From NCBI RefSeq assembly GCF_030687835.1, contig NZ_CP117449.1, positions 3,596,001-3,660,000 of the forward strand: a stretch of DNA of 64,000 bases, given 5' to 3'. The notes under the pieces are model-generated. The model worked only from the letters and a program-made list of their open reading frames with translations. It did no database searches and had not been told where the DNA came from. Numbering within the stretch: position 1 is the stretch's first letter; the number at the start of each line of letters is the position of its first letter. Of the stretch, positions 58,537-62,779 are shown one piece after another. This DNA is from Pseudomonas hefeiensis (GTDB lineage Bacteria; Pseudomonadota; Gammaproteobacteria; Pseudomonadales; Pseudomonadaceae). The translations under genes were made by a program, and so were the position numbers.

Positions 58537-59277
58537 ATGGATCACGTCGATCATGTGTTGATCGTGGATGACGATCGCGAAATCAGAGAGCTGGTAGGCA
58601 ACTACCTGAAAAAGAACGGCCTGCGTACCACCGTGGTTGCCGATGGCCGGCAGATGCGTGCCTTTCTGGAAACCACCCCGGTGGACCTGATCGTGCTGGA
58701 CATCATGATGCCGGGCGATGATGGCCTGGTGCTGTGCCGGGAACTGCGCGCCGGCAAACACAAGGCCACACCGGTGCTGATGCTCACCGCCCGCAACGAT
58801 GAAACCGACCGCATCATCGGCCTGGAAATGGGCGCCGACGATTACCTGGTCAAACCCTTCGCCGCCCGGGAACTGCTGGCGCGGATCAATGCCGTGTTGC
58901 GGCGTACCCGCATGCTGCCGCCCAACCTGGTGGTCACCGAAAGCGGTCGCCTGCTGGCGTTCGGCCGCTGGCGCCTGGACACCACCGCCCGGCATCTGCT
59001 GGACACCGACGGCACGATGGTCGCCCTGAGCGGCGCCGAATATCGCCTGTTGCGGGTGTTCCTCGACCACCCGCAGCGGGTGCTCAATCGCGATCAGTTG
59101 CTGAACCTGACCCAGGGCCGGGACGCCGATCTGTTCGATCGCTCCATCGACCTGCTGGTCAGCCGCCTGCGTCAACGGCTGCTGGATGATGCCCGGGAGC
59201 CGGCCTACATCAAGACCGTGCGCAGCGAAGGCTATGTGTTCTCGCTGCCGGTGGAGATCCTTGAGGCTTCGGTATGA
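58537..59277 (+). CDS. OmpR-family response regulator
   Basis: A 246-residue regulator: receiver with DDD at 11-13, phospho-Asp in LIVLDIMMPG, Lys in DYLVKPF; C-terminal winged-helix (LSGAEYRLLRVFLDHPQRVLNRDQLL … SRLRQRL … IKTVRSEGYVF). It overlaps the kinase gene by 4 nt (ATGA). The signal is unknown. The 232-bp region upstream is shared with DUF2790 and has no recognisable operator. Confidence 0.92.
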   Translation: MDHVDHVLIVDDDREIRELVGNYLKKNGLRTTVVADGRQMRAFLETTPVDLIVLDIMMPGDDGLVLCRELRAGKHKATPVLMLTARNDETDRIIGLEMGADDYLVKPFAARELLARINAVLRRTRMLPPNLVVTESGRLLAFGRWRLDTTARHLLDTDGTMVALSGAEYRLLRVFLDHPQRVLNRDQLLNLTQGRDADLFDRSIDLLVSRLRQRLLDDAREPAYIKTVRSEGYVFSLPVEILEASV

Positions 59278-60584
59278 GCCTGTCGCTGCGCTGGCCGCGC
59301 ACCCTCGCCTCGCGCCTGTCGCTGATCTTCCTGATCGGCCTGATCCTGGCCCAGGGCCTGTCGTTCGGCGCCCAGTACTACGAGCGCTACCAGAGCGCCA
59401 AGACCACCATGCTCGGCAACCTGGAAACCGACGTCTCGACCTCCGTGGCCATTCTCGATCGTTTGCCGGCTGCCGAGCGCCAGGACTGGCTGCCGAAACT
59501 TGCCCGACGCAACTATGGCTACCTGCTCGATGAAGGTCAGCCAGGCCAGCGAATGCTTCCTGACAACGCGCCGGTGTCGGTGAGTTCGATCCTGGAGGCC
59601 ATCGGCCAGGCCTACGCCCTGACGTTCACCAACATTCCCGGACCGCAGCAGCACTACCAGGCCCACCTGCGCCTGGCCGACGGCAGCCCGCTGACCATCG
59701 ACGTGCGGCCGGCGATGATGCCCCTCTCCCCCTGGCTCCCGGTGGTGTTGCTGGGGCAATTGGCGCTGTTGATCGGCTGCACCTGGCTGGCCGTGCGCAT
59801 CGCCGTCGGTCCTCTGACCCGGCTGGCCCAGGCAGTGGAAACCCTGGACCCGAATGCTCACAGCGTACGCCTGGACGAAAAAGGCCCGACCGAAGTGGTC
59901 CATGCCGCCAAGGCGTTCAATGCCATGCAGGACCGTATCGCCGCCTACCTCAAGGAGCGCATGCAGTTGCTGGCGGCGATTTCCCATGACTTGCAGACGC
60001 CCATCACACGCATGAAGCTGCGCGCCGAATTCATGGACGATGGCATCGAGAAGGACAAACTGTGCAGCGACCTGAGTGAAATGGAGCATCTGGTGCGCGA
60101 AGGCGTGGCCTATGCCCGCAGCATTCATGGTGCCATCGAAGCCAGCTGCCGCATCAACCTGGATGCGTTTCTCGACAGCCTGGTGTTCGACTACCAGGAC
60201 ACCGGGCAGGACGTGCAGTTGTCCGGGAAAAATGCCGCGGTCATCGACACCCGGCCCCATGCCCTGCGCCGGGTGCTGGTCAACCTGGTGGACAACGCAT
60301 TAAAGTTCGGTGGAGCGGCGCAAATCCAGGTGCAACCTGCCGACAACGGACAACTGATGATCCAGGTGCTGGACCGTGGTCCCGGCATCAATGAGCAGGA
60401 GCTGGCCGAGGTGCTCAAACCGTTCTATCGGGTGGAAAACTCGCGCAACCGGGAGACCGGTGGAACCGGATTGGGGCTGGCCATCGCCCAGCAACTGGCG
60501 ATCGCCATGGGCGGTTCGCTGACCTTGAGCAATCGTGACGGCGGCGGGTTGTGTGCCGAGTTGCGGCTAAGGGTCGAAAGTTAA
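59274..60584 (+). CDS. EnvZ-type sensor histidine kinase
   Basis: A 436-residue membrane kinase: TM1 about 15-33, periplasmic loop about 35-150, TM2 about 153-172, HAMP to about 230, HisKA with phospho-His in AAISHDLQTPITRMKLR, and HATPase (LVNLVDNALKFG, GTGLGLAIAQQLA). Forms a pair with the preceding regulator. The periplasmic loop (about 115 residues) is the sensing part; ligand unknown. Confidence 0.92.
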   Translation: MSLSLRWPRTLASRLSLIFLIGLILAQGLSFGAQYYERYQSAKTTMLGNLETDVSTSVAILDRLPAAERQDWLPKLARRNYGYLLDEGQPGQRMLPDNAPVSVSSILEAIGQAYALTFTNIPGPQQHYQAHLRLADGSPLTIDVRPAMMPLSPWLPVVLLGQLALLIGCTWLAVRIAVGPLTRLAQAVETLDPNAHSVRLDEKGPTEVVHAAKAFNAMQDRIAAYLKERMQLLAAISHDLQTPITRMKLRAEFMDDGIEKDKLCSDLSEMEHLVREGVAYARSIHGAIEASCRINLDAFLDSLVFDYQDTGQDVQLSGKNAAVIDTRPHALRRVLVNLVDNALKFGGAAQIQVQPADNGQLMIQVLDRGPGINEQELAEVLKPFYRVENSRNRETGGTGLGLAIAQQLAIAMGGSLTLSNRDGGGLCAELRLRVES

Positions 60585-60704
60585 CGGGCAACCAAACTGT
60601 GGGAGCAACTGTCTTGGATGGTTTATTTAGCCATCTTTTTCAGAGGCAGCGAGCCTCCCACAGCTCTGGGCTATGCAATTGTCTGAGGGAACCGGAATCA
60701 CAAT

Positions 60705-61637
60705 CTACGCGACGTCTCCCTTCCACTCAGAACCATCCCGGATCATTGCGTTTAGACGTATCAACAAGATCCGCATACATGCGATGAGCGCAACCTTCGC
60801 GCATTTGCCTTTCTCGCGCAGCGCCTTGTAGCGTGCATTGAAGTCAGGCTGATACCTGATCACTGACCAGCAGGCCATGTACAGAGCGCGCCTGGCGGAG
60901 AACCTACCGCCGCTGATATGGCGTTGGCCTTTGTGCGTGCCGCTATCGTCGTTGTAGGGGGCGATGCCTGCTAATGCGGCTATCTGATGTCGCCCAACCT
61001 CGCCGAGCTCTGGAAGATAGGCCATTACGCTGGCTGCCGTGACGAGACCGATCCCCTTGACCGAGCACAGGCGAGTGACTTTTTCACTGTCCAGGCTTTC
61101 AGCGCTTTGACGGATCATCTTTTCTATCAACTTAATGGCTTCGCACAGGTAGTCGATATGACTCTGCAACGCGGGTTTAACGGCCTCAGATGAGGCCGTT
61201 TTAAATCTGCGTTTGTCGTCATCTCTCTGCTGAGTAAAGTTTTCCCGTTGCTGGACCAGTGCGCGCAAGTCGTCCTGTTCGGCACTTGTGATCCGGCTGT
61301 TAGCCGATTTGATGACCGCTGCAAATTGCGCCAGGAGGCGCGCATCTATCGGGTCGGTTTTAGCTTGTTGTCCCATTGCTTTGGCAAAGCTCTTGGCTCG
61401 GCAGGGGTTGATCCGAATGACCTCAAAACCTGCAGCCTGAAGCGCTTTCATGACGTTTCGCTCGTAACCGCCAGTGGCTTCCAACAACACACGGGTGACC
61501 TGATGGAGCAGCAGCCAACCAATTAATCCAGGAAAATCATCTTCAGCGTTAGGGCAACTCACCCCAACATCTAAGAGATCAACCTGAACCTGAAGACTGT
61601 CTTTTGAAACATCAATACCTGCTGGATAGGAAAACAT
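60705..61637 (-). CDS. IS110-family transposase (DEDD recombinase)
   Basis: A 310-residue protein with the RuvC-like DEDD residues Asp9 (AGIDVSKD), Glu53 (LLEATGGYE), Asp95 and Asp98 (KTDPIDAR), and the C-terminal Tnp domain with the helix-hairpin-helix (LCSVKGIGLVTAASVMAYLPEL) and likely catalytic Ser232 (DDSGTHKGQRHI). ATG 61637 has gaggg 8 nt upstream; a TTG at 61643 is an alternative. Length and residues look intact, so the element could be active. Confidence 0.93.
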   Translation of the reverse strand: MFSYPAGIDVSKDSLQVQVDLLDVGVSCPNAEDDFPGLIGWLLLHQVTRVLLEATGGYERNVMKALQAAGFEVIRINPCRAKSFAKAMGQQAKTDPIDARLLAQFAAVIKSANSRITSAEQDDLRALVQQRENFTQQRDDDKRRFKTASSEAVKPALQSHIDYLCEAIKLIEKMIRQSAESLDSEKVTRLCSVKGIGLVTAASVMAYLPELGEVGRHQIAALAGIAPYNDDSGTHKGQRHISGGRFSARRALYMACWSVIRYQPDFNARYKALREKGKCAKVALIACMRILLIRLNAMIRDGSEWKGDVA

Positions 61638-61649
61638 GGCCAAACCCTC

Positions 61650-61845
61650 TTACACTCAAGGTGAGAGCGCTCTGGCTTGGCCCACGCTTGTAACTGTTCG
61701 AGGTGGGCTCGTTCAACTGTTCGGGCTCAATGACCAGAGTGGAGAGGTGAGTGGCAGCATGGGCTCCCACACGTGCTTTAAGCACTCCGGGCATTCAGCT
61801 TGCCACCCACCGCTCTCACCTTCAGTCTAAACGTAGCGCAAGACA
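61650..61845 (-). ncRNA. Predicted bridge RNA of the IS110 element
   Basis: The non-coding 5' end folds, on the - strand, into two large stem-loops closed by an outer stem (61811-61820 with 61660-61669). The first loop is closed by 61802-61811 with 61746-61755 (10 bp, one G-U) and contains, at 61771-61763, UGUGGGAGC, identical to the target strand at 60598-60606 and so complementary to the opposite target strand: the guide expected in a target-binding loop. The second loop is closed by 61734-61739 with 61670-61675, contains an inner stem (61703-61708 with 61680-61685), and bears ACAGUUG (61720-61714), matching the element's own end next to the core: a donor guide. Exact RNA ends are inferred. 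Confidence 0.75.
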
Positions 61846-61850
61846 CAAGC

Positions 61851-61931
61851 GGGCTTGCTCGCGAAGGCGTCGGCACATCCAACAATGATGTCGCCTGACA
61901 ATCCGCTATCGCGAGCAAGCCCGCTCCCACA
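61851..61931. repeat. REPIN split by the IS110 element (right part)
   Basis: Begins in mid-arm with gggcttgctcgcgaag and continues to the intact right arm gcgagcaagcccgctcccaca. The missing start of the left arm (ctgtgggagc) is at 60597-60606 on the other side of the IS. Confidence 0.88.
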
Positions 61932-62113
61932 AGGTTCAGCCCCAGGCTTCAATGTTATCGGGCTTTGTATGCCAATGTGTCCGCCACAGGCAGGGGTACA
62001 CAGGCTTGCAAACGGCCGCGTTGCAGACACACCCCACTTACAGCCGTTTGAAAAACTCCCTCGTGTCCCCGGTCGCTATTCACGACCGGGCCCTCACCCC
62101 AAGGAGCCTTCTC

Positions 62114-62779
62114 ATGCCTGCTTCCACGTTTCGTTTCCAGGGCTGGTCGCTGTTCAGCCTGCTCGCCGCCCTGGTGCTGTTGATGACCGCACTGACCCTG
62201 GCGCTCAACCCGGACCTGACCGAGGGTGTGCGCAGCGCCATCCGCGCCACGGCCCGCTCATCCTTCGCCCTGTTTCTGCTGGCCTTCACCGCCTCGGCGT
62301 TCGCCGTGCTGGTGCCGTCGCCCCTGAGCCGGGCCCTGGTCCGCGAGCGACGTTTCATCGGCTTGGCCTTCGCGTTTTCCCATCTGGTGCACGCCGTGCT
62401 GATCTACAGCTACGGCCAGCTCAACCCCGAGTTCTGGCCGGGTCGCACCACCCTTGGCAATGTCCCCGGCTCCGTCGGCTACGTGTTCATCCTGCTGCTG
62501 GCCCTGACCTCCTTCAAAAGCACCACGCGCCTGATTGGCGCCAAAGCCTGGAAATGCCTGCACGTCAGCGGCATGTGGGTGCTGGTGGCGATCTTTGCTT
62601 ACTCCAACTTCAAGCGCATCCCCATGAGTGCCTGGTACGTGTTGCCCTTCGGCCTGACCTGCGCCGCCATCGCGATCCGTCTGGTGGGCAAGCTCGCCCA
62701 GGCCAACTCGCGCCGAAAGAATTCCTCCCCGTTGGATCGCGCAGCAGCCGCTCCGGTTGCCACTGACAAACCGAACTGA
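62114..62779 (+). CDS. Ferric-reductase-like transmembrane protein
   Basis: A 221-residue membrane protein with six hydrophobic segments and histidines placed for haem binding ([26 protein letters not shown]), as in the ferric-reductase/MsrQ membrane domain. ATG 62114 has a perfect aaggag 7 nt upstream. 17 nt before the HvfX-like gene, so probably co-transcribed; perhaps a haem-b electron carrier for redox handling of metal. Confidence 0.78.

Follow-up and report, generated by a model that had tools for sequence, protein, structure and literature searches.

The window, the whole 64-kb stretch of DNA analysed here, carries at 60604..61849 on the minus strand a segment of about 1.24 kb which, judged from its sequence, is an IS110-family, IS621-like insertion sequence interrupting one arm of a REPIN. 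Its limits follow the breaks in an alignment of six genomic copies and include both dinucleotide cores (AG on the plus strand, CT on the element strand), which lie at 60604-60605 and 61848-61849, left and right respectively as read on the plus strand. Of the REP target split in this way, the right half, GCTCCCACAG on the element strand, occupies 60597..60606 (minus strand), and the left half, ending in GCAAGCCCGCT, occupies 61848..61862 (minus strand), the core being included in each; both halves were read from the sequence and from the copies. Since the flanks read ctgtgggAGC and AGCgggcttg, GCT (element strand) is common to both ends. A preliminary description made from the letters had placed an IS110 element in a REP site, with the arm split at ctgtgggAGC/gggcttg and the CT core kept at both ends; its coordinates proved correct, and the insertion into a REP site is borne out by the sequence and by six genomic copies.

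The core sits 20 nt past the end of an open frame (59274-60584) which, from its sequence, we take to encode a histidine kinase. On the other side of the element, the second arm of the same REPIN is intact at 61915..61931 on the plus strand (GCAAGCCCGCTCCCACA, found by pattern search) and represents an unused target. Across the window, 24 REP-arm matches with at most two mismatches were located between 1316 and 63402, against 0.04 expected; these arms fall into at least two types, many of them are paired and some form tandem arrays. Additionally, a REP-like stretch, CCTCCCACAGC, lies near the right end of the element (60654-60664). It is kept in six copies and partly in close relatives, and, read on the opposite strand, it is similar to the right target guide described below.

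The recombinase gene (tnp, 60705..61637, minus strand) encodes 310 amino acids from ATG. Its product matches PF01548 (82.3 bits) and, in the C-terminal part, PF02371 (60.2 bits), both over the cut-off, as well as NF033542, "IS110 family RNA-guided transposase" (215.8 bits; cut-off 140). The solved relatives by sequence are ISCro4 (9t56) and IS621 (8wt6), with which the protein aligns at GIDVSK, EATGGY, KTDPIDAR and GGRFSARRALYM. Within these motifs, the residues D, E, D and D together with a serine are presumably catalytic. An in-frame TGA was flagged in four genomes of the wider survey; in six loci of G378, G630 and G524 it is a natural stop near the C-terminus that falls within the aligned length, and the G485 copy (L039) is without an intact start in the reading that flagged it.

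Upstream of tnp lies a predicted bridge RNA (61655..61818, minus strand, ends approximate), composed of an outer stem, a target-binding loop and a donor-binding loop and supported by the fold, a consensus fold and covariation. The stretch 61650-61825 has a minimum free energy of -82.1 kcal/mol (z -5.2), and 0 of 200 shuffles were as stable. The outer stem is predicted to be closed by GGUGAGAGCG/CGCUCUCACC, and the tnp start is found directly 3' of it. In the internal loop of the first arm, the putative left target guide (LTG) GCCCG (61788..61792), recognised by position and covariation, occupies the 5' side, and the right target guide (RTG) UGUGGGAGC (61763..61771), recognised by a match test and covariation, occupies the 3' side. 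In the loop of the second arm, the 5' ACAGUUG (61714..61720) matches the right end of the element and is the candidate left donor guide (LDG), while the 3' ACAAGC (61686..61691) is complementary to the left end, GCTTGT, and is the candidate right donor guide (RDG); all four lie on the minus strand. The preliminary description had seen in the 5' non-coding DNA two stem-loops inside an outer stem, arranged as in an IS621-type bridge RNA, with one clear guide in each loop and shorter second guides. The stem-loops agree with the fold and its covariation, the RTG and LDG recur at exactly the positions it gave, and the shorter second guides are the LTG and RDG. The IS621-type arrangement as a whole is supported by the four guides, the fold and the covariation with targets.

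The weight of the individual guide matches was assessed with 3000 dinucleotide shuffles of a 171-nt stretch. The 9-nt RTG match was reached by 1.0% of shuffles and the 7-nt LDG match by 6.4%; the left-target and right-donor matches alone are not significant (52% and 78%), and all four matches together were reached by 0 of 3000. The longest exact left-target match in this test (GCAAGC) lies within a stem, outside the LTG. Because 52% of shuffles reach the left-target match, the LTG is not provable from the window alone; the copies and relatives serve to establish it. The two bases after the LTG are GA or AA, or CG in other loci, so that it would not pair with the CT core; this departure from the published IS621 scheme speaks against the reading.

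A consensus fold was derived from an alignment of 18 relatives, which are not independent of one another. It comprises 43 pairs with 98.4% of cells paired, versus 34-47% when partners were slid, and 12 pairs are changed on both sides, versus 4.2 in shuffles (0 of 500 reached this number). Further pair types were no more frequent than in shuffles (22 vs. 22.2; 417 of 500 as high). As the structure comes from the same 18-sequence alignment, the covariation test favours it. The bridge-RNA model R1 scores 203.6 bits on the element strand of the window and 26.5 bits on the plus strand; weak wrong-strand matches of this kind arise at several loci because the stems are near-palindromic. The earlier expectation that a covariance search would recognise this RNA held for the model built here, which finds related loci outside its training set, and failed for Rfam, where no bridge-RNA family matched.

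The host genome (6.45 Mb, one contig) contains six element copies, whose identity to the query is 98-100% in four cases and 92% in the other two. Each of the six interrupts GCCCG-CT-CCCACA (element strand) at the identical REP position, and no insertion at an unrelated site was seen among them, in agreement with what had been anticipated for other copies. The supply of targets is large: the genome holds 606 exact GCCCGCTCCCACA sites (1 for the reversed control), 452 GCTCGCTCCCACA sites (0 for the control) and 1,927 right-half GCTCCCACA sites (82 for the control). GCCCG precedes 606 of the 1,927 right-half sites (31%); if insertions are independent, the chance of all six copies falling in this class is (606/1927)^6 = 0.001. 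The copies therefore discriminate between REP types by the left half. Moreover, the left side of copy L004 keeps GCCCG-CT alone, with other DNA beyond it (CACACAGCCCG), and about five bases on the left are therefore sufficient. The claim that the guide is programmed for a multicopy REP offering many landing sites stands on these 606 GCCCGCTCCCACA sites, the six copies and the guide-target covariation. In one copy (L006), the recombinase gene is apparently frameshifted, and its bridge RNA region looks intact. A plasmid search matched 2,507 records, one at 60-80% identity and the others below 60%.

The relation between guides and targets was followed in related elements. All 73 loci given to this test were parsed, with no picking among parsed loci; they comprise 59 of the 62 loci of a first list, 11 of the 80 of a second, and three loci from the survey of sX15, a small RNA described below (L091, L094, L096). 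Left out of the first list were L039, L040 and L079 (left end missing or of another type), and the other 69 loci of the second list (some from the same genomes; L166-L225 among them) lay outside the test. Seven left and three right targets were unusable. Among the 66 usable left targets, the LTG matches at 5/5 positions in 37, at 4/5 in 28 and at 3/5 in one; among the 70 usable right targets, the RTG matches at 7/7 positions in 68 and at 6/7 in two. After collapsing to distinct genome-target-guide combinations (31 left, 29 right), own matches amount to 144 of 155 positions on the left (permuted mean 110.0) and 202 of 203 on the right (permuted mean 186.6), values reached by 0 of 10,000 permutations on either side. 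From these sequences, the target guides are seen to change with the target, in step with the REP of the respective host.

Individual cases illustrate this relation. In G386, the target ATTCG is accompanied by the guide AUUCG in 6/6 copies examined; in G529, the right target CTTCCTA by UAGGAAG; in Luteimonas granuli (L155), AGCTG by AGCUG; and in P. bharatica (L160), GCCAG by GCCAG. The left guide is GGCCG in two Luteimonas and ACCCG in G633 (L041), where the left target lies beside an assembly gap; the right target CTCCTAC occurs in several relatives. Other cases speak against a strict match: 3/3 copies in G533 have the target GCCCC with the guide GCCCG (a mismatch at the last base), G556 pairs AGCCC with GCCCC, G657 pairs ACCCG with GCCCG, and Arenimonas L164 is the locus with the 3/5 left target. 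In 20 of the 28 4/5 left targets, the difference is GUCCG vs. GCCCG, where pairing needs a G-U.

From the observed anatomy, the copies, and the covariation of the fold and of the target guides with their targets, the element is read with a probability of about 0.93 as an IS621-like IS110 member with a REP-programmed bridge RNA, a system that appears complete. The RNA binding, the circle and the strand exchange are modelled on IS621. Excision would produce a circle joining the right end, the core and the left end, and the junction would act as a promoter for the bridge RNA and perhaps for the tnp mRNA too. The recombinase would then bind the bridge RNA, whose first loop would pair with a REP arm (GCCCG to the left, and CTCCCACA to the right, with the CT core included), while the second loop would pair with the circle junction (ACAGTTG to the left, GCTTGT to the right). 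Strand exchange at CT would insert the element and split the REP. The promoter would have its -35 half replaced in the process, and renewed firing would thereby be restricted. REPs lie for the most part outside genes and number in the hundreds, so they would offer the element many low-cost sites.

An unlikely but not negligible rival is that the folded stretch at the 5' end serves mainly as a regulatory leader of tnp mRNA under antisense control, following the ISPpu9 model, and not a guide. The 5'-UTR of tnp and the antisense RNA Asr9 are described as affecting translation in ISPpu9 (PMC8450116), and the position of the tnp start, directly 3' of the outer stem, would suit such a leader; this reading leaves the guide-target covariation unexplained, however, and both roles can coexist. 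Far less probable is that the REP palindrome is recognised directly by the recombinase, through protein or hairpin recognition, the RNA match being a by-product of captured REP-like sequence. REPs are palindromic, IS110 is reported as the most represented family among REP-associated insertion sequences (PMC1525189), and a CTCCCACAG-like stretch is present at the right end (60654-60664) in all six copies. Against this, elements that hit different REPs carry correspondingly different guides, a change that affects either half and occurs at constant loop positions, and copies L004 (G000) and L078 (G386) retain little beyond the guided bases on the left. Membership in the IS1111 group, which is marked by a guide RNA downstream of tnp and by sub-terminal inverted repeats of 7-17 bp, is highly improbable even though ISPa11 (IS1111) also targets a Pseudomonas REP (PMC11187229), because the present element has its guide loops and its long non-coding end ahead of tnp, and the downstream end measures about 100 nt.

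The bridge RNA reading is closest to the system described for IS621 of E. coli (Durrant et al. 2024, PMC11208160). With IS621 as described there, the element shares membership of the IS110 group, a (here predicted) bridge RNA in the left end, a dinucleotide core, a left and a right guide in either of two loops, and a REP target; the promoter that IS621 forms over the circle junction has a possible counterpart here. The loop order, target before donor with the left guide 5', is the same. The recombinases, in contrast, are distant (phmmer E 1.8e-30), the REP is that of Pseudomonas here and that of E. coli there, and the LTG here is about 5 nt, excludes the core and would not pair with CT, while the RTG is 7-9 nt. 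A likeness to ISPpu9 and ISPpu10 of P. putida KT2440, drawn from published descriptions, concerns the IS110 family and the use of a single REP position: 7/7 copies of each reportedly occupy one REP position and show a direct repeat of 2 bp (PMC1525189), which is AG in ISPpu9 (PMC8450116). Two RNAs of about 180 nt each are further described for ISPpu9 (PMC8450116): one is antisense and spans the sequence that precedes tnp, the other is sense and lies downstream. For the present element, the R1 search of the window found no second bridge RNA copy. With ISPa11 and other IS1111 elements, the element shares an RNA-guided DEDD transposase and, for ISPa11, a REP target, although their guide RNA lies downstream of tnp and here it lies upstream (PMC11187229).

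The circle junction can be examined at the level of sequence. A -10-like hexamer, TAGACT (61824..61829, minus strand), would in the circle be separated by 17 nt from TTGCTT, a hexamer that arises when 60606-60608 is joined across the junction. The arrangement TTG-17-TAnnnT, with TTG from the right end and TAnnnT in the left end, is kept over the predicted closed-circle junction in 19/19 loci (17 genomes) with differing spacer sequences, as a promoter-like pair that would re-form over the junction. In the integrated window copy, REP sequence stands in place of TTG. On neither strand of integrated 61560-61960 did a sigma-70 scan find a promoter or a terminator. The two junction hexamers agree poorly with the consensus (TTGCTT 3/6, TAGACT 4/6) and fall below the scan threshold, so the scan is blind to the joined form too. 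In IS621, a promoter is reported to be re-formed on excision (PMC11208160).

The opposite strand of the bridge RNA adds a further layer. An Rfam search of 60400-62200 (E up to 1) gave a sole match, a full-length one to RF02234 (sX15, an sRNA of Xanthomonadaceae), over the bridge RNA locus and on the strand opposite to it (61660..61825, plus strand); its 43.1 bits lie below the 55-bit cut-off. Genome-wide, sX15 matches only the six element copies (38 to 43.5 bits). Among 119 genomes of the family to which G012 belongs, 19 had a match, at 32 places, 30 of which were examined as loci. A transposase gene or remnant adjoins sX15 in 21 of these 30 (11 of the 21 are over the Rfam cut-off) and is divergent from it in 21/21, so that sX15, by these sequences, is the antisense strand of such bridge RNA loci, in parallel to Asr9 of ISPpu9. 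Additionally, R1 recovers 9/9 sX15 loci given, on the strand opposite to sX15 (E 3e-9 to 2e-12 for L021, L080, L082, L083 and L085; stronger for L091, L092, L094 and L096). In the remaining places, sX15 lies about 0.75 kb from a tnp (L099), a weak match mirrors a strong one on the opposite strand (L103), and the flanking DNA available holds no tnp (L084, L088, L089, L090, L097, L100 and L105, three of them at contig ends).

In the window itself, the evidence for an antisense RNA from the plus strand is a hint, consisting of the homology and a -10-like hexamer, TACACT (61651..61656, plus strand), whose TAnnnT is kept in relatives and which gives no sigma-70 match at the scan threshold; the empty scan of 61560-61960 counts against a strong antisense promoter. 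A broader, tentative idea is that a clade-wide "anti-bridge" RNA is made from the strand directly facing the bridge RNA (represented by sX15 in Xanthomonadaceae, by Asr9 in ISPpu9 and by the plus strand at about 61660-61825 here), masking the guides or freeing the tnp ribosome site, so that activity would be set by guide and anti-guide; under the same idea, Ssr9 would be the bridge RNA of ISPpu9, and sX15 in two Xanthomonadaceae genomes in which no transposase was found beside the locus might be a domesticated RNA. Ssr9 is described behind a copy of joined end boxes (PMC8450116), and this description suggests, by analogy, that it may be the bridge RNA of ISPpu9. Overproduction of Asr9 is reported to have raised transposition (PMC8450116), which argues against a simple inhibitor. 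As sX15 and the published ISPpu9 RNAs are tied to bridge RNA loci, antisense regulation of the bridge RNA becomes directly testable. In the literature consulted, which did not cover the original description of sX15, nothing linking sX15 or Asr9 to bridge RNAs was found beyond one sentence in which the ISPpu9 small RNAs are thought to modulate recombinase expression (PMC11208160).

Earlier papers have described IS110 elements that target REPs, namely IS621 (PMC11208160) and ISPpu9 and ISPpu10 (PMC1525189). What is added here is the series of guides, with an LTG of about 5 nt tracking the REP of each host, and the link to sX15; relative to the preliminary description, the additions are all four guides, the predicted circle-junction promoter and the antisense/sX15 link. 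This natural series, combining left guides of about 5 nt with right guides of at least 7 nt that track the host REP, can help in learning what minimal rules the guides of bridge recombinases obey and in picking recombinases for Pseudomonas.

Several minor observations concern related loci. At L088 (1501-1671) and L089 (1501-1669), in two genomes of about 5.2 Mb, sX15 occurs without an adjacent transposase and the left end has decayed; it is possibly a retained antisense RNA. The neighbouring gene at both is presumably tex-like, with an S1 domain. Mobile units consisting of a bridge RNA alone, similar to Ssr9, were also considered: no intact one appeared among the R1 hits in 20 + 298 Pseudomonas genomes, of which 37 loci were inspected and the rest were compared with tnp places by coordinates only. 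Most of the 37 are accompanied by tnp, others lie at contig ends, L137 has an N gap, and L139, L140, L143 and L145 look like decayed or deleted copies.

In the donor loop, the loci L021, L080-L083, L085 and L087 mostly combine a left end CTTAT with a right donor guide AUAAG, and L087 has CTTGT with ACAAG, a compensatory pair. Finally, the two element variants in the host genome represented by copies L001 and L005 differ at 91 alignment columns, none of which falls within 61315-61786. This invariant stretch of 472 bp takes in the greater part of the bridge RNA together with the beginning of tnp, as if it had been spread by gene conversion.
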